IMG/VR virus record: IMGVR_UViG_3300046733_000038
Span: 1 to 25,410 of that record
DNA from: a virus
DNA length: 25,410 nt
Reading direction: 5' to 3' (one strand)
A program made the position numbers and the translations under genes. A model generated the notes under the pieces. It was not told the DNA's origin, ran no database searches, and worked only from the letters and a program-made list of their open reading frames with translations. Positions 4,024-12,716 of the stretch are shown piece after piece (the stretch's first letter is position 1; every line of letters starts with the position of its first letter).

Positions 4024-4235
4024 ATATGACAAATCAAGAAACAAGATTATTGCATTACCTAGAATCAAACAAAAAGATCAGTCCGATGGAAGCTTGGACT
4101 GAACTTGGTATTTATAGATTAAGTGATGTGGTATTTAAGTTAAGAAACAAAAACTACGAGATCGAAACCGAAAGAAAGTCAGTATTAAACAGGTTCGATG
4201 AACCATGTAGTTTTGCAGAGTACAAACTACTATGA
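4020..4235 (+). CDS. Small winged-helix/HTH protein, 71 aa
   Basis: The pattern TRLLHYLESNKKISPMEA, then LGIYRLSDVVFKLRN, then a short strand pair (YEIETE and AEYKLL) matches the small phage helix-turn-helix family I know as HTH_39 (about 70 aa). The first helix pair and recognition helix fall at residues 6-45 and the wing at 46-70. Such proteins are thought to bind DNA and are often next to replication or restriction genes. Overlaps both neighbours by four bases (ATGA type), so it is made together with the methyltransferase. Confidence 0.7.
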   Translation: MNMTNQETRLLHYLESNKKISPMEAWTELGIYRLSDVVFKLRNKNYEIETERKSVLNRFDEPCSFAEYKLL

Positions 4236-5785
4236 ACTATTTATCCGTATGTAGTGGCGTAGAGGCTGCAACAGTAGCTTGGCATAAGCTAGGTTGGAAT
4301 CCTGTTGCATTTTCAGAGATAGAGAAGTTTCCAAGTGAGGTGTTGGCACATCATTATCCCGGTGTGCCTAACCTTGGAGATATGTCTAATTATAAGGAGT
4401 GGAATTTTGGAAAAAAAACAATTGACCTTTTGGTCGGAGGAACACCTTGTCAATCCTTCTCAGTCGCAGGACTCAGAAAAGGACTTGAAGATCCGAGAGG
4501 CAATCTTGCCCTCATCTATGTTGGCATTCTTAACAAGTTTAAACCCAAGTGGTTCATTTGGGAAAATGTGCCAGGCGTCCTCAGTAGTAACAAAGGACGG
4601 GATTTTGGTTCATTCCTCGGGGCGGTGGGCAAACTCGGGTATGGGTTCAGCTACCGAGTGCTTGATGCTCAGAACTTCGGAGTCCCACAGCGAAGGCGAA
4701 GAGTCTTTGTTGTCGGACATTTTGGAGACTGGCGACCTGCCGCAGAAGTATTATTTGAGCCAGAAAGCTTGTCAAGGCATATTGAGGAGAGCAGAAAAAA
4801 GAGGAAAGACACTCCCAAAGACACTAGAATTGGCATTGACACAAGTGGCCCACTTGCAGCCAGAGACTACAAAGACATGGGAACAGATGGACTCAACAGA
4901 ACCTCAGCAAAAATGATCCCTACAACAGCACATTGTTTGCAAACAACAAGCAATGATTACTCAAGAGCTGATGGGTTTAATATGATACCTGAGCAAACAG
5001 ATGCTTTGTTAGCAAGAGATTACAAAGGATTAAACTCTGATAGCTTGGATAAGAAAGCTATTGTTGAAGTCTTTGAGAACCATCCAGCTGATAGTCGTGT
5101 TAAACAGATGGGTGACACTTGTCATTCAGTAACTGCAAGATGGGGTACAGGCGGTGGTAACATTCCTTTTGTGTTAGGAGGTCAGCATCCAAACGCTGCA
5201 GTTTCTAAAAATAAATCACCAACATTAACCAATGCAATGGGTAGTGGTGGCGGTCATGTTCCTGTATTAAACAATCCTATTGCTTATAGCATTCGTGAAG
5301 ATGGGCAAAAAAATAACATGAGTGTTACTAAGTTAGATGTATCTAATTGTTTATCCTCTCATCAGCCAAGCATCATGTCACATCATGCACAAACTTTTGT
5401 AATGGATCAAGCAGTAGCTTTTGGTTGGCAGAATAGTGACTCACAATCTATGTCAGTTGATACGATTACTCCTACATTAGATAAAAGTAAGACACCAGCA
5501 GTTGCTTTTGATACATACAACACAACAGTAAGTAATACTAATCAAACTATAAAAAGTCCTAATGGTGGAGTGCAAGAAAGTGTAGGTACTGTATTTAAAA
5601 ATATGGCAGTAAGAAAATTAACACCAATTGAGTGTGAAAGATTGCAAGGTTTTCCTGATGGATATACAAACATCAAAGAAAATTGTCCTGATGGACACAG
5701 ATATAAAGCAATGGGTAACAGTATGGCCGTTCCTGTAATGAAATGGATAGGAAAAAGGATCGAATTAGTTAGTAAAACAAGCTAA
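4232..5785 (+). CDS. dcm: DNA cytosine C5-methyltransferase
   Basis: Transfers a methyl group from S-adenosylmethionine to cytosine C5, probably to protect phage DNA from host restriction. The conserved motifs are in order: SVCSGVEAA (5-13, cofactor site), GGTPCQSFS (69-77) with nucleophile Cys73, WENVPG (110-115), QRRRRVFVVG (153-162), then RKLTPIECERLQGFP (461-475) and MGNSMAVPV (494-502). At 517 aa it is longer than a minimal enzyme because the region between QRRRR and RKLTP (about residues 165-460) is very long and repetitive (see findings). No restriction endonuclease is next to it, so it is probably an orphan enzyme. Bases 4400-4760 are clearly richer in G and C than the rest of the gene. 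Confidence 0.92.
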   Translation: MNYLSVCSGVEAATVAWHKLGWNPVAFSEIEKFPSEVLAHHYPGVPNLGDMSNYKEWNFGKKTIDLLVGGTPCQSFSVAGLRKGLEDPRGNLALIYVGILNKFKPKWFIWENVPGVLSSNKGRDFGSFLGAVGKLGYGFSYRVLDAQNFGVPQRRRRVFVVGHFGDWRPAAEVLFEPESLSRHIEESRKKRKDTPKDTRIGIDTSGPLAARDYKDMGTDGLNRTSAKMIPTTAHCLQTTSNDYSRADGFNMIPEQTDALLARDYKGLNSDSLDKKAIVEVFENHPADSRVKQMGDTCHSVTARWGTGGGNIPFVLGGQHPNAAVSKNKSPTLTNAMGSGGGHVPVLNNPIAYSIREDGQKNNMSVTKLDVSNCLSSHQPSIMSHHAQTFVMDQAVAFGWQNSDSQSMSVDTITPTLDKSKTPAVAFDTYNTTVSNTNQTIKSPNGGVQESVGTVFKNMAVRKLTPIECERLQGFPDGYTNIKENCPDGHRYKAMGNSMAVPVMKWIGKRIELVSKTS

Positions 5786-5895: not shown

Positions 5896-6129
5896 TTAGT
5901 GGACTGACTTCATTTTAGGTTCAACTAGATATAAATCTGCACCTTCGCAATGAATTAGTAAATAATCATCATCTTCACGAGAAAAACAGATTTTGATCAT
6001 GGACTGTGTATCATCTTCTAGCAGTTCTACATTCCAAATCTTTCTTCCAATCAACTTATCTAAAGTTTCAGCTTGATTTGCATCAGCCTCGGAAGTAAAC
6101 TCTACATCTAAACTATCGTCCCCGTCCAT
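5896..6129 (-). CDS. Unknown acidic protein, 77 aa (last gene of the late operon)
   Basis: Starts with ATG at 6129, 22 bases inside the end of the metallophosphoesterase gene, which carries a GGAGGAAG ribosome binding site there. The protein is acidic at its N-terminus (MDGDDSLDVEF) and in the middle (residues 38-55), with alternating strand-like segments (RKIWNVELLE, YLLIHCEGADLYLVEP) that suggest a small beta-rich domain. No family is recognised. It is the promoter-distal end of the minus-strand operon. Confidence 0.6.
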   Translation of the reverse strand: MDGDDSLDVEFTSEADANQAETLDKLIGRKIWNVELLEDDTQSMIKICFSREDDDYLLIHCEGADLYLVEPKMKSVH

Positions 6130-6815
6130 CTTCCTCCATCCTTTAATACCATCGGCATTAGTTTTGGTTGTCCATCTATAATCATGCCACAGCCGATTAC
6201 AAATCTCGATTTAAAATTCTTTGCATACTCAAACGCAAGTTCTTTTTGATTGATAAGACATCCTGTTTGTAATCCCCATACTAATTTGTCAGGGTTAGAA
6301 TAATAACTAATACTAAATTTAGAATGATAATGTCCTTGGACTGCATGCATGCCATATTGCTGCGCCACTTTCATTACATCGGCTGCCATTCCATGAGTAA
6401 AGAAACATCTTTGACCATCAGATAGCGTAACCTTTAAGTCATCTACCCATTCCCATTCAGGGCCTACATTTAGAAACTCGTTGTAAGATTTCAGATACTC
6501 TAGGCTCAAGCCATGAGCGACTGCTTTACGATAAACTAATGATGAATGATTAGAGTGTACCAAGGTCATTTTTGGAAAAATTTTTTCTAGTTCTTTTACA
6601 TACTTCCTAGCCTCACGCAGCTCATCGCCCGGAGACTTTAGATCTGGATGATGATTATGAAAACTAATAGAGTGTTGATCGATTTCATCACCGATGTTTA
6701 CGATTAAGTCTGGCTTGTATTTTTTCTTGAGTGCTGCTAAAAATTTAAACGCATCAGGATGATGGTAAGGTATGTGTAAATCTGATATTACTAATACGGA
6801 TTTATAATTACTCAT
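6108..6815 (-). CDS. Calcineurin-like metallophosphoesterase
   Basis: The dinuclear-metal phosphoesterase fold is shown by SDLH (11-14), IGDEID (41-46), NH at 89-90, THG (140-142) and GHYHS (161-165). These supply the Asp, Asn and His ligands in the usual order. In many family members the third motif is GNHE or GNHD; here it reads SNHSS, so the flanking Gly and acidic residue are missing while Asn and His remain. At 235 aa it is a single-domain enzyme; the substrate (nucleotide, nucleic acid or protein phosphate) cannot be told. It follows the lysis genes after a 38-base gap containing a perfect palindrome, AACATATGTT (6827-6836). The ATG lacks a strong ribosome binding site. Confidence 0.8.
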   Translation of the reverse strand: MSNYKSVLVISDLHIPYHHPDAFKFLAALKKKYKPDLIVNIGDEIDQHSISFHNHHPDLKSPGDELREARKYVKELEKIFPKMTLVHSNHSSLVYRKAVAHGLSLEYLKSYNEFLNVGPEWEWVDDLKVTLSDGQRCFFTHGMAADVMKVAQQYGMHAVQGHYHSKFSISYYSNPDKLVWGLQTGCLINQKELAFEYAKNFKSRFVIGCGMIIDGQPKLMPMVLKDGGRWTGTIV

Positions 6816-6853: not shown

Positions 6854-7291
6854 TTACTCGTACAGTAACACTCCACTCTTACCTATCCTCATCATTTGTC
6901 TACGAGGTTTCTCTCCTTGTTTTGGAAAAGCAATATGAATCCATCTTCCAAACTCTAGGATGAGTTGATCAAACTGTATTGAGCTATCAGCTAATGCTCT
7001 CATCACTTCATGAATATTACCAAAGCTAGGACAAGTAAAGTCTGCGGCTAAACCCAATGTGTGGTAGCTAGTGTCTTTAGATTTTAACGCACGATTTAAT
7101 TCTAGGCATCTAAATCCTGATGATATTAGTATAGGTCTACTATCTAGTTTAGTTCGGACTTGCTCTAATCCTTCGCATAAGATTTCTAGGTTAGCAATTT
7201 CTTCTGCCAGGGGAGTGTTATCTATATCTAATCTTGTAGCTGTATTGGAGTGACTTAGCTCGGCTAAGGTAAAATGAGGACTGAGCTGCAC
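6854..7291 (-). CDS. Peptidase M15-family endolysin
   Basis: A zinc peptidase expected to cut peptide crosslinks in peptidoglycan and release progeny. The M15 signature S-x-H-x-x-G-x-A-x-D is at 75-84 (SYHTLGLAAD) with His77 and Asp84 as zinc ligands, Glu113 as likely catalytic base and WIHIAF with His119 as third ligand. SSGFRCLELN (57-66) is the usual segment just before. At 145 aa it is a minimal single-domain enzyme without a signal peptide, so it depends on a holin. The only plausible start is GTG at 7291, overlapping the holin stop (TAGTG). Confidence 0.88.
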   Translation of the reverse strand: MQLSPHFTLAELSHSNTATRLDIDNTPLAEEIANLEILCEGLEQVRTKLDSRPILISSGFRCLELNRALKSKDTSYHTLGLAADFTCPSFGNIHEVMRALADSSIQFDQLILEFGRWIHIAFPKQGEKPRRQMMRIGKSGVLLYE

Positions 7292-7683
7292 TACTTGGTA
7301 AGGCCCTTTAGCTTTTCAAAAGTTCTTAATCCCGCAATCCCAAGCATTGCAAATACAAGCTCAAGTAGTATCTCTGAATCTATAGAAGGTAGTGTCTGAA
7401 ATGATCCATCTAAATGATCGATCCATGTAGCCAAAGGATGACCAATGAATAACCAAAAGACTCCTAATGCACATGACCATCCAATAGCAGGTCGCCATCC
7501 AGCAACGAATAAACTCTGATGAGCTGCTTCTATTTTATTGGTTTCTGTTTGTGCTAGTAAAAGTTTGTTAGCGTTGTCAGTAAGAGACTTTTCTATCTCT
7601 CTCTTTGCTTTTGCGTTAGCGTTCTTGTCAGGAACTACTCTATCAATTACATTCCCAATCAATGGTAATAAGGCTTGTATCAT
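7291..7683 (-). CDS. Holin-like protein (GTA 3TM holin family)
   Basis: Residues 1-50 are an amphipathic start (MIQALLPLIGNVIDRVVPD) and a charged helix. The family box AAHQSLFVAGWRPAIGW follows (53-69), then a membrane segment at about 67-82, a short loop with LDG, and a second segment at about 105-119. This fits the 3TM holin family first described from gene transfer agents. It lies directly before the endolysin with a one-base overlap and after three membrane micro-genes, confirming a lysis module. Starts with ATG in an ATGA overlap. Confidence 0.85.
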   Translation of the reverse strand: MIQALLPLIGNVIDRVVPDKNANAKAKREIEKSLTDNANKLLLAQTETNKIEAAHQSLFVAGWRPAIGWSCALGVFWLFIGHPLATWIDHLDGSFQTLPSIDSEILLELVFAMLGIAGLRTFEKLKGLTK

Positions 7684-7796
7684 GATTCAGTCCATCCGTA
7701 TAGTAAACATAAAATTACAGGAGTAACAGGGAGTGCTGCCAATAAAGCTATGGTAACAGTTACAGGTTTTGTTAGAAAAAATTTAAACCAACGCAT
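7680..7796 (-). CDS. Membrane micro-protein of the lysis module, 38 aa
   Basis: The frame starts with ATG at 7796 and ends TGA at 7680-7682, overlapping the holin start by four bases (ATGA). The peptide has a basic aromatic start (MRWFKFFLTK), one hydrophobic segment (about 12-34) rich in Ala/Leu/Val/Pro, and a polar end (GWTES). The positive-inside rule predicts an N-in topology. It overlaps the upstream micro-gene by 14 bases and has no clear ribosome binding site of its own. It could be a second holin, an antiholin or a pinholin-like protein; context only. Confidence 0.55.
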   Translation of the reverse strand: MRWFKFFLTKPVTVTIALLAALPVTPVILCLLYGWTES

Positions 7797-7854
7797 AGCA
7801 GTATGTAAATAATACTATAAGTCCAAAGAATGCAATAAGAGTTTCTTCTGTCAT
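7783..7854 (-). CDS. Membrane micro-peptide of the lysis module, 23 aa
   Basis: ATG at 7854 overlaps the stop of the upstream gene (ATGA) and is preceded by GGAAG at good spacing. The peptide has an acidic start (MTEE) and a hydrophobic remainder (about 5-23) with one Cys and two Tyr. At 23 residues it is near the limit of what can be called, but position, overlap on both sides and ribosome binding site argue for translation. Confidence 0.42.
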   Translation of the reverse strand: MTEETLIAFFGLIVLFTYCYALV

Positions 7855-8018
7855 ATCTTCCAGCCTTGAGATGTGGCCCACAAATAAACTAAACCAACTA
7901 ACATCAAAGCAAATATTCCACGAAGAGAGAACTTTCCAAATTCAGAAAACTTTTCATTCAGCCAATCTTGCAAGCCTTCTTTGATCGCTTGTTTAGTTTC
8001 TTCTGGACTAGGCTTCAC
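7851..8018 (-). CDS. Small membrane protein of the lysis module, 55 aa
   Basis: The frame opens with GTG at 8018, inside the last codons of the upstream gene, and ends TGA at 7851-7853. Residues 5-30 form an amphipathic, charged helix (EETKQAIKEGLQDWLNEKF), followed by one membrane segment (about 32-49) and a short QGWKI tail. From memory, similar small proteins (charged helix plus one membrane span, ending QGW-x) occur next to lysis genes in aquatic phages. A holin or spanin-like accessory is plausible; no catalytic motif exists. Confidence 0.6.
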   Translation of the reverse strand: MKPSPEETKQAIKEGLQDWLNEKFSEFGKFSLRGIFALMLVGLVYLWATSQGWKI

Positions 8019-8184
8019 TTGTCTTATTACCTTTAGCTACCCATTTTAAATATTCTTGATAGTCTGTGTTGGCTTCATCAAGAGGAATTGACATAGTAAT
8101 AGTTTCACCATCTTCATTTTCTACTATTTTATTTACTTGAACTATCTCATCTGATAAAGCACTTCTTATTAATTTATATTCCAT
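8008..8184 (-). CDS. Short tail-adhesin companion protein, 58 aa
   Basis: I take the ATG at 8184, two bases after the stop of the 339-aa adhesin; an upstream start at 8223 would lie inside that gene. The protein starts MEYKLIRS, has an acidic strand region (VENEDGETITMSIPLDE) and ends with a helix typical of small fibre-chaperone-like proteins (DYQEYLKWVAKGN). It is the third short protein in this array placed directly after an adhesin-like gene. A folding or assembly role for the preceding protein is inferred from position. Confidence 0.6.
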   Translation of the reverse strand: MEYKLIRSALSDEIVQVNKIVENEDGETITMSIPLDEANTDYQEYLKWVAKGNKTSEA

Positions 8185-8186
8185 AG

Positions 8187-9206
8187 TTAAAACTCCGAAT
8201 TCAGTGTAAAGACTGCATACCAATAAAAGTTACCTGCTGCACTTGCCGAGTGATAATATCCAAAACTATTAGTTCTTTGTTTGTGATAAATATAAGAATT
8301 ATTTACATTACCTGATTCAAGTACAGTAGAAGTTATAGTTGGATTTGCTCTCATTTCAGTATTAAACTGACATCTACCACCAACATGCATACCTGCATTT
8401 ACATAACTTTGGTTGGCATCTAGTATTGTTTGATAATACCTTTGACAATTTGCATACTGCTGTCCGTGTTGTAAATACTCAAAAGGTGTTGCAGTTGTGC
8501 CTTTTTCCACTTGAAGTCCTGTCATATACCATGTTGCACCACTAGTAGATACTACTGATGTTGCTCCTGTAGCACTAAATTTAGCACCACTTGCCCACGC
8601 ACCTGCTGTTCCACTGTAAGTGCTTCCCATGCCAAGTGAAAAATTAACTTGAAGTCCTAGACCATTAGTTTTTAACCAAGTACCTGTAGTATCACCTGCA
8701 ATAGTTACAGATTTTTTTTCCCATGTGTCAGCACTAGATATAGTATAAGTAAATGGATAGTTTCTATCTTCTGCGCCATTAAGTAATGCACCACCAAATG
8801 TTCCTGTTAATGAACTACGAATCCAAAAAGATATAGTTATTGTTTGTGCATCTGAAGTTCCATACTCTAAGTCTGCTACATTATAACCTTCAATATATTG
8901 CATAAATAAAAATAATTCACCTGCTGCTACTGTATGTGCAGAGGTAGATGTAATTGCAACTGAATTTGAAAACCCAACAGGTGCAGTTGATGATTGTTGA
9001 AGTGTAAATTTTCCAGTTGCATTTTGATAAGCTCTAAATCTATCTAATGTATATGTCCCTGCTACTGGAGTTACACTAGCTCCAGAATTTCTTTGGTCAA
9101 TAACCATATCACCATTAATAATTTTATTCTTACCTACAGGAGCAGATGGTTGTAATGAGCCATCATTATATGTAATACCATTAGTTCCGTTGATTGCTAC
9201 CGACAT
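8187..9206 (-). CDS. Tail adhesin / receptor-binding-like protein, 339 aa
   Basis: The layout is familiar from phage tail proteins: a short N-terminal attachment segment (INGTNGITYNDGS, near 5-17), KNKIINGDMVIDQRNSG (27-43), a jelly-roll-like region with YTLDRFRAY, SFWIRS and WYMTGLQVEKG (to about 245), then PFEYLQHGQQYANCQRYY and a variable C-terminal domain. The last 90 residues (from about 255) are expected to be the exposed receptor-binding tip. It probably binds host surface carbohydrate. Starts in a TAATG overlap with the 94-aa gene. Confidence 0.75.
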   Translation of the reverse strand: MSVAINGTNGITYNDGSLQPSAPVGKNKIINGDMVIDQRNSGASVTPVAGTYTLDRFRAYQNATGKFTLQQSSTAPVGFSNSVAITSTSAHTVAAGELFLFMQYIEGYNVADLEYGTSDAQTITISFWIRSSLTGTFGGALLNGAEDRNYPFTYTISSADTWEKKSVTIAGDTTGTWLKTNGLGLQVNFSLGMGSTYSGTAGAWASGAKFSATGATSVVSTSGATWYMTGLQVEKGTTATPFEYLQHGQQYANCQRYYQTILDANQSYVNAGMHVGGRCQFNTEMRANPTITSTVLESGNVNNSYIYHKQRTNSFGYYHSASAAGNFYWYAVFTLNSEF

Positions 9207-9490
9207 TATTCATCTCCCTTTGGATACTTTGCTTTGACTTCTTTTATATGGTCAAGCCATGTTTCTGTACCATCTTGTACATCATGGTATTGCATATCTA
9301 GTTGTTCAGCTAATGGTTTGTATGCTTGTTGTCTTTTATATTTGTATGCTTCTGGATCTACCCAAGCATCAACATCACTCATATTAATTGCTACATTATT
9401 GCCATCTTTATCTTTAGCTCCTTCTGTATCATCTACTGATACTACATTAGGATATAGGGCATATATTGCTACATGATTTAATTTACTCAT
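9206..9490 (-). CDS. Short tail-adhesin companion (chaperone-like), 94 aa
   Basis: It lies between two adhesin-like genes with TAATG overlaps on both sides. The first part is strand-like (HVAIYALYPNVVSVDD), the middle carries YKYKRQQAYKPLAEQLDMQYHD, and the end is a helix finishing KAKYPKGDE. The RQQAY-P-L-EQLDM-YHD pattern is common in small proteins encoded after phage tail fibre genes. The same KAKYPKGDE end is found in the 100-aa protein ending at 10092, so the two share an origin or a recombination joint at least at the 3' end. Confidence 0.65.
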   Translation of the reverse strand: MSKLNHVAIYALYPNVVSVDDTEGAKDKDGNNVAINMSDVDAWVDPEAYKYKRQQAYKPLAEQLDMQYHDVQDGTETWLDHIKEVKAKYPKGDE

Positions 9491-10092
9491 TATGCTGCTA
9501 CCTCCATTAAAACAATATTTAAAGGAACACTCATATTATAAGTCCCAACACTTGCATAAGAGCCACCAATACTAGCAGTTGCACCACTTTCTACTCCTAA
9601 AAATAATTTATAAGTAGTTGCTGATGTAGTACTAGGTGAATCTAAAAAAGTAATATTAAAGTTTTGCGCCCAGCCTGACCCATCAACAGGACTACCTGCT
9701 GAAGCTCTTGTTTCAGAACCTCTTAAATCACCTACTGATATTAATGTTGTGTCTCTTTTAAGTTGTAAAGCTACAGCATAATTATTTGTAGAAACACCAA
9801 AAGCACCACTAATCATAACTAAAACTTTACTACTAGAAGCACTAGGTGTAATAGTCGCATTTCCTCCTGTTATTTCTATGGTAGAAGGTAAAACTGTAGT
9901 GCTAGAAAATTTATCGGTTTTTGTATTTTGAACTACTTGTAATATTTTACCTGTAGTAAGTGCATTTACATCTGCTGTTGTTGCTATCGTGCTTGTACTT
10001 GCAGGTAGTGTAAGTGTATTAGTTCCTGCTACTGCTGGTGCTGCAACTGTAATAGATCCAGAGGTGTTTCCTGTTAATACTATATCAGCCAT
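9490..10092 (-). CDS. Tail adhesin-like protein, 200 aa
   Basis: Begins with the repetitive N-terminus seen in many phage fibre proteins (MADIVLTGNTSGSITVAAPA and TLTLPASTSTIATTADVNAL), then GKILQVVQNTKTDKFSS (about 48-64), after which a beta-rich Ser/Thr/Gly domain of about 130 residues makes up the tip (TPSASSSKVLVMISG near 82-96). The GKxL box at the domain joint also occurs in the 197-aa neighbour (GKVLKQTS). It probably forms part of a trimeric adsorption protein. TAATG overlaps on both sides. Confidence 0.7.
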   Translation of the reverse strand: MADIVLTGNTSGSITVAAPAVAGTNTLTLPASTSTIATTADVNALTTGKILQVVQNTKTDKFSSTTVLPSTIEITGGNATITPSASSSKVLVMISGAFGVSTNNYAVALQLKRDTTLISVGDLRGSETRASAGSPVDGSGWAQNFNITFLDSPSTTSATTYKLFLGVESGATASIGGSYASVGTYNMSVPLNIVLMEVAA

Positions 10093-10394
10093 TATTCATC
10101 TCCCTTCGGGTATTTAGCTTTTACTGCTAAACAATCATCTATATATTTTTGTACTTGAGCATCATCACCTTTTACAATACCATCTAAATAATCTGCATGA
10201 GGCGGATATTCTTTTTCTCTTAAAGCTTTTATCTTCTCTAAAGCTATATTAGATAAAATTGTTTCCCAAGCAGGTTTTTTTGATAAATTTTTCCAACAAT
10301 CTAAAGCATTGTATTCTTTTTCTGTTGTTGGTGGATTACCTTCATATCCTTTAAAATTATCAAACTTACTTACTACATCATCAAATAAAGCCAT
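10092..10394 (-). CDS. Short tail-adhesin companion (chaperone-like), 100 aa
   Basis: I take the start as ATG at 10394, which overlaps the upstream stop as TAATG; a longer frame to 10412 would begin inside the neighbour. The protein is mostly helical and Lys-rich (FDDVVSKFDNFKGYEG, then LREKEYPPHADYLDG near 63-77) and ends KAKYPKGDE like the 94-aa protein. EYPP-ADYLDGIVKGD resembles the EYP-x-x-DYLDG-VK-D box known from small proteins that follow phage fibre genes. Role inferred: folding or assembly of the adhesin encoded just upstream. Confidence 0.65.
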   Translation of the reverse strand: MALFDDVVSKFDNFKGYEGNPPTTEKEYNALDCWKNLSKKPAWETILSNIALEKIKALREKEYPPHADYLDGIVKGDDAQVQKYIDDCLAVKAKYPKGDE

Positions 10395-10987
10395 TATACT
10401 TCTACCTCCCAAACTGTTATTGTCGACCTTGTATTCTGATACCTAGCTTCATCAGTTGAAGTTGGATTTAGTACACTAAAAGGCTTTCCTGTAGTAACGC
10501 CATTAGCTGGTTTCCATCCCCAATAAACAGTCTTACTTCCTGCACCACCCATAGTGCCAAAATCAAGATTAAGATGATGAGTATTAGAGGTACTACCAGT
10601 ACCATTATAAGTATAAGGTTGATATAGGTATGTAGTATCAATTCTAATACCTGCTCCTGCCACTCCAGAATAATTTCCAAAACCTGCAATAGAAGCAGTA
10701 ATAATTAAATTAGAAGTAGCTGAATTTTTTGTTATATTACCAAAACTAAGCCAATAATCAGCGGAGGTTGGTAAAACTGTCCTTGTTGTATTTGTTAGAC
10801 TTGTTTGTTTTAAAACTTTACCTGTAACAACTGCATCACCTGTTAAAGTCTTACCGCTAGCCATTGTTAAACCAGTAGAACTAACTGTAGCAATCGTTGC
10901 GCCTGCTGATTGTAGGTTTAAATTACCACTTGTATCAGAGGTTAATTTTAATCCGTTACTTGTATCTGCATTAATTATTGTAGCCAT
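10394..10987 (-). CDS. Tail adhesin-like protein, 197 aa
   Basis: The N-terminus (INADTSNGLKLTSDTSGNL, then QSAGATIATVSSTGLTMASG) is the repetitive beta-strand type used by phage fibres to attach to the tail. GKVLKQTSLTNTTRTVL (about 56-72) begins a beta-rich tip domain with many Gly/Tyr/Trp, including VYWGWKP near 144-150. It is the first of three adhesin/companion cassettes after the main fibre. It starts two bases before the stop of the fibre gene would end (TAATATG arrangement), so it is coupled to it. Confidence 0.7.
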   Translation of the reverse strand: MATIINADTSNGLKLTSDTSGNLNLQSAGATIATVSSTGLTMASGKTLTGDAVVTGKVLKQTSLTNTTRTVLPTSADYWLSFGNITKNSATSNLIITASIAGFGNYSGVAGAGIRIDTTYLYQPYTYNGTGSTSNTHHLNLDFGTMGGAGSKTVYWGWKPANGVTTGKPFSVLNPTSTDEARYQNTRSTITVWEVEV

Positions 10988-10988
10988 A

Positions 10989-12647
10989 TTATAATATCAC
11001 CCATCGTTGTCCAGAAGGAACAGTTACTGTAACGCCTGTTGCTATAGTTATAGGCCCTACTGACATACCATTCGATCCTGTAGTTAGTGTATAGTTAGAT
11101 GTAATGTCATCTGTGTTTTCGTAGATAGCACCACCTGCTGATGCACCACCTCCAATAGAACCCCACTCACTTCCATTGTATCCTTCAAATCCTGTTGTTG
11201 TGCTATTGAATCTTAGGAAACCAGCACTCGGTGATCCATCTCTTTGTGCTGTAGTTCCTGTTGGCATTTCAGCAGAACCTGTTGCTGATGTTTTAGATAC
11301 TAATCCATCAGTTGATATTACTGTTACTTGCCAAGCTGATCCATTGTATATTCTTGTTTCATTACTTGTTGTATTAAAGTACCAATCACCTGCGGTAACT
11401 GCATCGCCATTATTATCTACTGTTGGGTTAGATGCTTGTGCGCCAAGGTAGAACTCATCAATACTATCTTTAGTTGCGGCGGCGGCGGCGGCACTTGCAG
11501 CAGATGCAGTCGCTGAACTAGCAGATGCAGTAGCTGATGTAGCTGAAGCAGTTGCAGAGGTCGCAGCATTAGTTGCAGAAGTTGCAGCTTCACTTGCCTT
11601 AGTCGTAGCAGTTGATGCTGATGCACTTGCTTCACTTGCTTTTGTTGTTGCAGTTGATGCAGAAGAGGTAGCTGATGATGCTGAACTTGATGCACTTGTT
11701 GCTGATGAAGCGGCTGCTGTTGCACTTGTAGCTGCATTTGTTGCAGAGGTACTTGCTTCTGATGCTTTAGTTGTTGCTGTACTTGCAGAAGTTGATGCCG
11801 ATGTAGCAGAGCTTGCGGCATTGGTAGCAGATGTAGCCGCTTCTCCCGCTTTTGTAGTCGCTGTAGTCGCAGATGTTGCAGCACTAGTAGCACTTGATGC
11901 CGCAGCAGTTTCACTCGCAGCAGCCGCAGTCGCACTAGCCGCAGCAGCAGTTGCACTTGCTCCAGCCGTAGCTGCATCTACAATTAAATCCCATTTAGCT
12001 GCATCAGTATTCGTTGTTAATGGTTGTGAACCACTCGATGTATGAGCAGTGTTAGCCATGAATATGTTGCTAGTTGATGTATCTTTTACTAAGTCACGCT
12101 TGTTATATGATGTACCTGCTGACCAATCACCACGATAGTCACCAATCTGCTCACCAATAACAGGATCACCATTAGCATCAAATGCTAGTGTTTTATTTGC
12201 TCGTGTTGTATTGTCAGGCAACTCCATGTTGACTGTAGTAGGATCTGTGTTTGGCGCACGAAGTGATCGATTAGATTGTTCTAAGTTTTGTTGGGTAAAG
12301 ATAGTAAGACTGTCTAACTCATCATTCAGTGATGCAGCAAAGAGTGGGCCACCTGTCGTAAAGTCAGTAGTTCTTTGTATAGTCCTGTCACCCACGATAG
12401 TAATACGATCATTAGCATCTGGTGTGCTTGGAACTCTTGCACTACCACCTACAACAATAGTTACGCTACCTGTACCATCAGCACTAATAGCAACTGTATA
12501 ATCAGTAGTTAGTGTTAGCTCTGTATCATTAAAGTATACGGCTAGATCAGTATTTACTAATATGTTAAACGCAAAAGCATACGGGCCAGTGCCTGCTGAA
12601 CCAGTGTAAACAATACGCCTTGTTGTTGCTGAAATGTCAATTGCCAT
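10989..12647 (-). CDS. T7-type tail fibre protein
   Basis: Residues 1-150 match the T7 gp17 N-terminal attachment domain: IVYTGSAGTGPYAFAFNIL (12-30), DLAVYFND (34-41), RITIVGDRTIQRTTDF (81-96) and GGPLFAASLNDELDSLTIF (99-117). A carbohydrate-binding-like segment with YRGDWSAGTSYNKRDLV follows (171-187). Residues about 225-390 are an Ala/Ser/Thr repeat expected to form a long trimeric coiled coil. The end has AGDWYFNT, a second GSAW box and a tip ending VTVTVPSGQRWVIL. At 552 aa it is almost the length of T7 gp17 (553). The RBS GAGGAT precedes the ATG at 12647. It attaches further adhesins or binds the receptor itself. Confidence 0.85.
   Translation of the reverse strand: MAIDISATTRRIVYTGSAGTGPYAFAFNILVNTDLAVYFNDTELTLTTDYTVAISADGTGSVTIVVGGSARVPSTPDANDRITIVGDRTIQRTTDFTTGGPLFAASLNDELDSLTIFTQQNLEQSNRSLRAPNTDPTTVNMELPDNTTRANKTLAFDANGDPVIGEQIGDYRGDWSAGTSYNKRDLVKDTSTSNIFMANTAHTSSGSQPLTTNTDAAKWDLIVDAATAGASATAAAASATAAAASETAAASSATSAATSATTATTKAGEAATSATNAASSATSASTSASTATTKASEASTSATNAATSATAAASSATSASSSASSATSSASTATTKASEASASASTATTKASEAATSATNAATSATASATSATASASSATASAASAAAAAATKDSIDEFYLGAQASNPTVDNNGDAVTAGDWYFNTTSNETRIYNGSAWQVTVISTDGLVSKTSATGSAEMPTGTTAQRDGSPSAGFLRFNSTTTGFEGYNGSEWGSIGGGASAGGAIYENTDDITSNYTLTTGSNGMSVGPITIATGVTVTVPSGQRWVIL
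11476..11975 (-). repeat. Ala/Ser/Thr tandem repeat in the tail fibre gene
   Basis: About 500 bases code for imperfect repeats such as ATTKASEASTSATNAATSAT, returning at intervals of a few tens of residues (TTKAGEAATSATN, TTKASEASTSATN, TTKASEASAS, TTKASEAATSATN). The promoter-distal end carries a GCG/GGC triplet run (11476-11492) that codes for consecutive Ala. Triplet slippage would change length without breaking the frame. Confidence 0.8.
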
Positions 12648-12716
12648 AATTTATAATCCTCTGCCTTATTTTACCTATAATATTTATTAAATTCTACTAA
12701 ATGATATCTCTTATTA

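Follow-up and report, generated by a model that had tools for sequence, protein, structure and literature searches.

Do the adhesin-like genes that stand in tandem behind the tail fibre of a virus represent fixed tail genes, or an array whose contents can be exchanged? The question is raised by a 25,410-base IMG/VR virus record (the window, meaning the whole stretch of DNA analysed), where open reading frame (ORF) analysis places a T7-type fibre gene, followed by three pairs of adhesin and short companion genes, at 8008-12647 on the minus strand. A preliminary description of this locus had given a fibre of 552 amino acids (aa) and pairs of 197 + 100, 200 + 94 and 339 + 58 aa, lengths with which the ORF calls agree (companion 1 measures 106 aa in a mechanical ORF list, from an upstream TTG, and 100 aa from its ATG). 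It had further proposed a swappable array with a companion of its own for each adhesin, a view upheld by gain, loss and exchange in relatives and by cassettes common to phages with other backbones. The reading that we consider probable is a three-slot receptor-binding array with distinct sockets, each taking a mobile tip and its cognate assembly chaperone.

Under this reading, a short-tailed marine phage keeps at each slot an N-terminal anchor of its own (A1, A2 or A3), often behind a conserved C-terminal domain of the fibre, and the anchor would plug the adhesin trimer into a particular site on the tail. The exchangeable unit behind the anchor would consist of the C-terminal or tip domain of the adhesin and the downstream cognate chaperone, which in the main companion family would combine an adhesin-specific N-half with a generic helical C-half, as in Pam3 gp25 and TfaMu. 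Phages with different backbones may recombine at the anchors on the upstream side and at or beyond the companion on the downstream side; tip and companion thus move jointly and can change slot.

The anchored array and its contents in relatives

Relatives were gathered in two sets. In the first, a neighbouring 862-aa virion protein and the holin served as probes (53 loci fetched, along with the best 80 of 126 matches); in the second, the anchors were the probes, the best 80 matches being taken in two of the lists, and four Methylophilales isolates were added. The adhesin hits (402 of 424 complete, 292 unique) comprise at least 222 loci with anchored adhesins, reduced to 156 arrays sharing no identical adhesin. 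Once incomplete genes, adhesins lacking a subsequent ORF or directly adjoining another adhesin, and cases with a following gene longer than 260 aa were excluded, 239 adhesin-companion pairs remained.

The anchors span ~40 codons in adhesin 1, ~36 in adhesin 2 and ~22 in adhesin 3, in each case from the start of the gene, and usually occur in that order. Among 119 adjacent slots, A1>A2 is found 68 times, A2>A3 31 times, A2>A1 12 times, A1>A3 five times and A2>A2 three times, and the gap between adhesins is 120-330 nucleotides (nt), i.e., space for one companion, in 76 of the 119. When arrays with unlike adhesin domains and unlike upstream companions were compared (for slot 1, unlike domains sufficed), identity rose at the ATG and dropped at about +117 in slot 1 (2464 pairs), +108 in slot 2 (523) and +66 in slot 3 (41); upstream of the ATG, a GGAG-like site alone stood out. 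The residues QRW lie immediately upstream of the slot-1 adhesin in 60 of 98 cases. The window follows the order A1-A2-A3 behind the fibre C-terminal domain, each adhesin having a domain-matched companion, and this fibre domain is, as judged by eye, common to MEP402 gp60, MEP401 gp57 and MEP301 gp22. The fibre itself is of T7 type, as seen from its gp17-like N-terminus (phrog_1640 tail protein, residues 5-134, E 5e-16) and its position after the internal virion protein genes.

Three relatives (L009, L011 and L049) carry the same three-slot layout with other contents, between flanks that are ~81-97% identical to the window. By blastn, they align with the window in the fibre together with anchor 1, in anchors 2 and 3 and in the downstream flank, and are mostly unaligned in between, the exceptions being short adhesin-3 stretches and the adhesin 3 of L011, which is 69% identical through most of the gene. 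The slot-1 and slot-2 domains of L011 are unaligned between flanks of 92-97% identity, and the slot-1 adhesin domain of L009 matches the slot-3 domain of the window (65% nt identity, blastn), that is, across slots. The downstream flank is conserved (94% nt identity to L009 over 8091-6854 and 97% to L011 over 8091-7264). A further relative (L001) has no anchored adhesin, though its virion protein is 96% identical. Thus, not only the slot contents but also the array as a whole can be gained or lost. A sister branch, with a virion protein 81-82% identical, has other long fibre-like genes together with 2OG-Fe(II) oxygenase genes (PF13640) where the array would stand. In MEP301, a GIY-YIG/NUMOD3 homing endonuclease gene, gp20 (L138:6420-7001), is located at the slot-2 5' end, and its N-terminal sequence, MASIKLQGDTS, is almost a copy of the anchor carried by the next adhesin; a homing endonuclease at a recombination island could drive cassette exchange.

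Similar contents occur on other backbones. When the DNA of 7900-12650 was compared with 50,697 phage records, the four best matches were MEP301, MEP402, MEP401 and Venkman, all phages of Methylophilales, a group of methanol-consuming ocean bacteria; pelagiphages, among the matches listed, ranked lower and aligned in the fibre region only. MEP401 and MEP402 are classed as Zobellviridae. The MEP402 slot-1 adhesin (gp59) has a domain 66% identical in amino acids to that of window adhesin 2, which occupies slot 2; at the DNA level, identity is ~86% over the columns of 9873-9514 and 100% over a stretch comprising the end of the adhesin and companion nt 1-120. For slot 3 of Venkman, identity to the window is ~89% over the first 120 columns, ~56% in the middle (9086-8528), ~90% over the tip (at least 90% in 9 of 11 thirty-column steps) and ~85% over the first 150 columns of the companion. 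In both comparisons, the adhesin end and companion start are the most similar DNA besides the anchor, which indicates that the travelling unit is tip plus companion. In the Venkman record, gp54-gp56 (L135) are labelled mesocentin-like, FhaB-like and F-box, and are read here as companion, adhesin and companion.

The attachment of the adhesins would depend on the anchors, and several adhesins on one short tail, as the preliminary description had envisaged, are plausible. A rather unlikely alternative is that the slots are not displayed side by side: adhesins 2 and 3 would bind adhesin 1 in series or serve different stages, and there would be no multi-receptor virion. The shortness of the anchors, and the low confidence with which anchor 3 alone is predicted, suit this alternative; the retention of the slots together across many arrays, each with its own anchor, speaks for separate sockets. 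In the AlphaFold model of adhesin 3, mean pLDDT values over residues 1-30 are 42, 45 and 59, and the tip and anchor are poorly predicted as a monomer. Residues 26-236 of adhesin 3 are predicted to form a jelly roll like that of CBM4 modules (CBM4-2; Z 13.6, rmsd 2.8, 161 residues aligned) and also like a domain of CBA120 tailspike 4 (Z 12.6), which suggests carbohydrate binding; against solved structures, the profile of its family reaches a phage spike at E 0.039.

Companions and the adhesin domains that they follow

The family of the adhesin C-terminal domain (CTD) predicts the family of the companion. Over 214 non-redundant pairs, it accounts for 2.228 of 2.537 bits, against 0.727 bits for slot alone; shuffles within slots gave a mean of 0.953 and a maximum of 1.138 bits, and none of 2000 reached the observed value. 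The window companions 1, 2 and 3 belong to companion clusters 0, 0 and 1, and their adhesins to CTD clusters 7, 0 and 1. CTD1 (window slot 3) is joined to companion 1 in 66 of 66 pairs, in slots 3 (51), 1 (11) and 2 (4), and CTD0 (window slot 2) to companion 0 in 59 of 63, in slots 2 (48), 1 (13) and 3 (2). Among the other pairings are CTD2 with companion 2 (24/27), CTD3 with companion 0 (17/18) and CTD4 with companion 3 (4/7). Out of sample, the next gene matches the companion-1 hidden Markov model (HMM) at E<1e-3 in eight of ten phage genomes with a CTD1-family gene (isolate or assembled genomes, hand-picked among 30 CTD1 matches listed), and gp38 and gp37 of pelagiphage HTVC100P also fit this pairing. 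In the Acidovorax phage Alfacinha1 (Peduoviridae), gp17 (L359:2520-2906) has a companion-1-like N-part and an extra C-terminal part; window companion 3 may thus be the minimal form of a longer tail-fibre helper.

Within families, the partial correlation with the companion is clear in CTD1 (0.359 for the tip and -0.008 for the middle of the adhesin); it is weak, or present in the middle too, in CTD0 (0.107 tip, 0.223 middle) and CTD2 (0.258, 0.222), and linkage alone could explain it. A test on companion halves was preferred, since neighbours correlate less in it than non-neighbours. Family-0 companions combine several kinds of N-half with three kinds of C-half (QLDMQYHD, EQLDNIYHNG and DYLDGIVKG) in many combinations; MEP402 gp58, for example, joins the N-half of window companion 2 to a C-half of the companion-1 type, and the C-half of window companion 1 is close to it. 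The 100 members of companion family 0 were reduced to 70 by motif split and removal of duplicates (short XkdW-like members dropped out) and to 62 with CTD0. In these 62 pairs, the partial correlation is 0.656 between N-half and adhesin domain, 0.178 between C-half and adhesin and 0.141 between N-half and C-half. As the two halves correlate weakly though adjacent, more than plain linkage decay is at work, and specificity for the adhesin lies in the N-half.

This two-part build, a variable N-domain and a conserved helical C-domain, is present in the family-0 companions, and the structure was predicted for companion 2: a small alpha/beta N-domain and a three-helix C-domain (AlphaFold, pLDDT 90.7). 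Companion 3, at 58 aa, leaves no room for a second half. In HTVC203P gp40, an XkdW domain is combined with a C-half of family 0, the latter recognised by eye. By analogy with known chaperones, the helical C-half is probably generic and trimerising. The fold search, made for companion 2 only, gave a best Foldseek E of 3.4 and a VIA Z of at most 2.7; because no PDB fold match was found for it, the likeness to Pam3 and TfaMu is an analogy from architecture and literature. Among solved structures, the companion-2 family profiles also reached nucleoporin Nsp1 (E 0.0015, 0.054) and, at E 0.53, a chain of a Rho-associated kinase; these matches were set aside as probably due to chance.

That the companions are cognate assembly chaperones is suggested by adhesins that do without them and by tail-chaperone families in homologous positions. 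Where an adhesin ends in the intramolecular chaperone Peptidase_S74 (confirmed by Pfam in 5 of 5 tested; 17 by our own profile), the next adhesin stands directly behind it in 6 of 12 adjacent pairs, as against 4 of 100 other pairs (Fisher p 6.6e-5, an optimistic value, since the six companion-less S74 adhesins are related and represent few independent events). The S74 adhesin gp36 of HTVC100P likewise lacks a companion. Furthermore, 15 of the 16 CTD2 cassettes listed have a second companion (74-75 aa) that resembles PF16778 (Phage_tail_APC) below the cutoff in 9 of 9 tested (E 0.0007-0.008; 16.5-19.8 vs 26.6 bits), and HTVC203P gp38, in a comparable position, passes the PF16778 cutoff (32.7 bits) and matches a PHROG for 'tail fiber assembly'. 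The window companions themselves have no match to PF16778, and Peptidase_S74 was not found in the window's own adhesins by Pfam or by our own profile. Family models for tail fibre assembly (Tfa) proteins (Pfam Caudo_TAP and DUF4376) had no match at E<=1 in the three window companions and none at E<=0.01 in 46 companion-0 members. Over Pfam as a whole, companion 1 has no match at E<=1 and companion 3 none at E<=0.01; the significant matches of the companions are solely to PHROGs of 'unknown function', and no Pfam or PHROG function label was obtained.

It is unlikely, though conceivable, that the companions instead serve as small tip adhesins or as caps, remaining at the end of the fibre and themselves touching the receptor, and that they travel with the tip because the two jointly form the binding surface. 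Such a protein is known in the gp38 of T2/S16-type phages, which stays on the fibre end and contacts the receptor. The tight linkage of tip and companion and the small size of the companions would fit, and one report proposes for Alteromonas phage chaperones a further role as transient caps, citing TfaMu as remaining bound (PMC10579305). Nevertheless, S74 adhesins often have no companion, as though an internal chaperone took over, and both the tail-chaperone matches in comparable positions and the shuffled generic C-half, which looks trimerising, argue for assembly chaperones.

Besides the relatedness of the S74 adhesins, several points weigh against the reading of slots filled by tips with cognate chaperones. 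The frequencies of slots and families are biased, since loci were gathered via anchors or neighbouring genes from the best rows of longer lists. L274, a close relative, shares the slot-1 cassette of the window (96% nt identity over 1234 nt; adhesin 1 has a 98% identical counterpart there), so exchange is not constant. As regards pairing, 4 of the 100 non-S74 pairs in the sample have no companion, the out-of-sample genomes S-N03 and S-SBP1 fail and are weak (E 0.16), respectively, and the one-to-one rule is not universal, as P-SSP7 has four adhesin-like genes and one such companion. Five of the 12 S74 pairs keep a companion of 76-80 aa (cluster 3), and the sixth remaining pair (MEP301) has the GIY-YIG endonuclease in the gap. 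None of the three window companions has an above-cutoff Pfam match, and the companion-2 family has no convincing match to a solved structure by sequence or fold. Finally, the host is probably a member of the Methylophilales (OM43-type) to judge from the cassettes, but the 862-aa backbone protein is nearest, among isolates, to those of pelagiphages (HTVC203P, 55.6% aa identity); the five nearest isolates (44-56% aa identity) all infect Pelagibacter, which weakens this host assignment.

Gene junctions and the shared companion end

The preliminary description had noted TAATG stop/start overlaps at 10394, 10092, 9490 and 9206, all four of which are present; the fibre/adhesin-1 and adhesin-3/companion-3 junctions are of another kind. 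In relatives, TAATG is frequent yet not general (68 of 112 slot-2 starts, 29 of 62 slot-3 starts and 75 of 239 adhesin-companion junctions). Companions 1 and 2 do share the C-terminal end KAKYPKGDE, and the DNA at 10093-10116 and 9207-9230, described earlier as nearly identical, matches at 20 of 24 positions. All four mismatches are synonymous third-codon changes (GCT/GCA, AAA/AAG, TAC/TAT and CCG/CCA). The longest exact run common to the two companion genes is the 15-nt AAGGGAGATGAATAA, which covers the stop codon and the following gene's GGAG site, and the best local DNA alignment of the whole genes covers the last 37 nt alone. Hence, conservation is at the amino-acid level and, save over the ribosome-binding site, not at the DNA level, and the two companions are alike in their 3' DNA because they belong to one protein family and share one ribosome site.

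A loosely defined ribosome-site pattern precedes 101 of 112 slot-2 starts (40.6 expected from shuffled windows), 62 of 62 slot-3 starts (18.4 expected) and 39 of 98 slot-1 starts (23.6 expected), and the site is overlapped by the ends of companions from different families. Among the 239 companion ends, KYPKGDE occurs in 13, [YFH]PKG in 47 (these 13 included), a related PK motif in 22 and none of these in 170. The KAKYPKGDE end is mainly a family motif lying over the ribosome-binding site of the next gene.

As a general joint for cassette exchange, which the preliminary description had made of this repeated 3' end, the motif was rejected: 170 of the 239 companions are without it, yet exchange continues. 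Some crossovers do lie within companions. MEP402 gp58 is a mosaic whose 5' part is 100% identical to companion 2 over 120 nt, whose middle is near companion 1 and whose last ~27 nt, where just four synonymous sites separate companions 1 and 2, match companion 2; together with the shuffled C-halves (KAKYPKGDE included), this places some crossovers inside companion genes, in some cases perhaps near the 3' end. The mosaic end and the combination of C-half types with various N-halves are what the joint has in its favour; with an exact identity of only 15 nt, with arrays lacking the motif in their companions also mosaic (L009, L011), and with conserved islands that begin at the adhesin ATG, preceded just by a GGAG-like site, the 3' end is a very improbable joint, and the 5' anchors of the adhesins are the conserved islands instead. 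A fixed set of vertically inherited, fast-diverging tail genes, to which the conserved order and anchors and the slot 1 retained by L274 might point, can be practically dismissed, as it is contradicted by the unaligned L011 domains between near-identical flanks, by one domain family behind different anchors and by the identical 120-nt stretch common with MEP402, a phage assigned to Zobellviridae.

Neighbouring genes, known systems and implications

The gene order on the minus strand of the window is major capsid protein, tail tubular proteins, internal virion proteins (phrog_684 and others), T7-gp17-type fibre, the three adhesin and companion pairs, a small membrane-type protein, holin and endolysin (Table 1). 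Beyond the lysis genes, a metallophosphoesterase gene (phrog_221) at 6108-6815 lies between these and the methyltransferase region, and such genes also follow the lysis genes in relatives L004, L006, L009 and L010, as judged by eye. On the plus strand, a 517-aa gene (4232-5785) matches DNA methyltransferase PHROGs (phrog_116, E 3e-93) and partly a primase-annotated PHROG.

Table 1. Features of the array in the window and selected features of related loci (loci given as locus:coordinates).
Feature	Coordinates	Strand	Description
T7-gp17-type tail fibre	10989..12647	-	552 aa; PHROG tail matches phrog_1640, phrog_38058
Fibre C-terminal domain	~10989-11300	-	last ~100 aa, ends ...GQRWVIL; conserved, just 5' of the array
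Adhesin 1 (slot 1)	10394..10987	-	197 aa; anchor A1 (MATIINADTSNGLKLTSDTSG...) and C-terminal domain (CTD cluster 7)
Anchor A1	10868..10987	-	conserved 5' island of slot 1, from comparison among relatives
Companion 1	10092..10394	-	100 aa from ATG; unusual N-half, C-half type 'DYLDGIVKG..KAKYPKGDE'; phrog_2687 E 6e-7
Adhesin 2 (slot 2)	9490..10092	-	200 aa; anchor A2 (MADIVLTGNTSGSITVAAPAVAGTNTLTLPA) and CTD family 0
Anchor A2	9985..10092	-	conserved 5' island of slot 2, from comparison among relatives
Companion 2	9206..9490	-	94 aa; predicted alpha/beta N-domain and three-helix C-domain; phrog_9114 E 6e-15
Adhesin 3 (slot 3)	8187..9206	-	339 aa; anchor A3 (MSVAINGTNGITYNDGSLQ), predicted CBM-like jelly roll and variable tip; phrog_4492 E 2.5e-47
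Anchor A3	9141..9206	-	conserved 5' island of slot 3, from comparison among relatives
Adhesin 3 tip	8187..8498	-	co-travelling with companion 3; ~90% nt identity to Venkman
Companion 3	8008..8184	-	58 aa from ATG at 8184; 'DxxNTDYQEYLxWVAxGN' family (cluster 1); phrog_20370 E 1e-5
Downstream flank, end of array	6854..8018	-	55-aa membrane-type protein 7851-8018, holin 7291-7683, endolysin 6854-7291
Sister-branch loci	L004:6784-7899, L006:17267-17851, L008:5140-5715		fibre-like / oxygenase genes
CTD2 second companions	L009:15656-15883, L094:5458-5682 and 13 similar		74-75 aa

The joint movement of a tip and its cognate chaperone between unrelated phages is already known. In the Alteromonas phages A5, V22 and P24, a host-recognition module of tail fibre and cognate chaperone is found across podo-, myo- and siphoviral backbones, and the chaperones resemble intramolecular chaperone domains (PMC10579305). 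The array resembles this module in that a fibre and its downstream chaperone are common to unrelated genomes infecting one bacterial genus; the Alteromonas phages differ in having one fibre-chaperone pair, central fibres and larger chaperones (176-239 aa; DUF4376 in A5 and V22), and the accessible portion of that report describes no three-slot anchored array, slot switching or shuffling of chaperone halves. In myocyanophage Pam3 (gp24-gp25) and phage Mu (TfaMu), a variable fibre-binding N-domain is combined with a conserved trimerising helical C-domain (PMC9608196), a two-part logic like that of companion 2. Pam3 gp25 differs in its length (162 aa), beta-sandwich N-domain, Tfa sequence similarity and single fibre; the window companions, unlike it, have 58-100 aa and no Pfam Tfa match. 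Peptidase_S74 (PF13884), which forms the C-terminus of the adhesin in some slots and appears to replace the companion, is part of the same chain, unlike the companions.

Among cultured phages, MEP401 (OP830906), MEP402 (OP830907) and Venkman (MT375522) have anchors A1-A2-A3 in order, as in the window, and MEP301 (MW452941) has A1 and A2 with a T7-type fibre; all four share array DNA with the window. Their records name the array genes tail fibre, hypothetical, 'mesocentin-like', 'F-box' and similar, and the array is not described in the accessible parts of PMC8024684 or PMC9004378. In the model cyanophage P-SSP7, a Prochlorococcus phage, genes 037-041 (L346:1017-3737) comprise four tandem adhesin-like genes behind the gp17 fibre, similar to window adhesin 2 in three places, with a single companion of the companion-0 type; they differ from the window in their N-termini and in having fewer companions than adhesins. 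No description of three distinct anchored slots, slot switching or recombining half-companions was found in searches of an open-licence library; the new parts are the three distinct slots, slot switching and the half-and-half companions.

Tentatively, and with less assurance than attaches to the slots themselves, the phages of a host group may share a pool of plug-in receptor modules. Three orthogonal anchor sockets would permit exchange of one slot by homologous recombination without collapse of the array, the virion would show three specificities, and each module would bring a two-half chaperone whose halves recombine separately; homing endonucleases at anchors, such as MEP301 gp20, may drive the exchange.

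For marine phages, the analysis turns 'hypothetical' genes (PHROGs 9114, 1787, 2687, 2432 and 20370, of 'unknown function') into a testable class of candidate cognate fibre chaperones, under the simple rule that the companion family tracks the adhesin tip and neither slot nor backbone. The rule explains how phages that differ widely in backbone, yet have the same streamlined ocean bacteria as hosts, could renew host recognition one module at a time. If all three slots are displayed together, the array would constitute a natural multi-specific receptor-binding design in a small phage.

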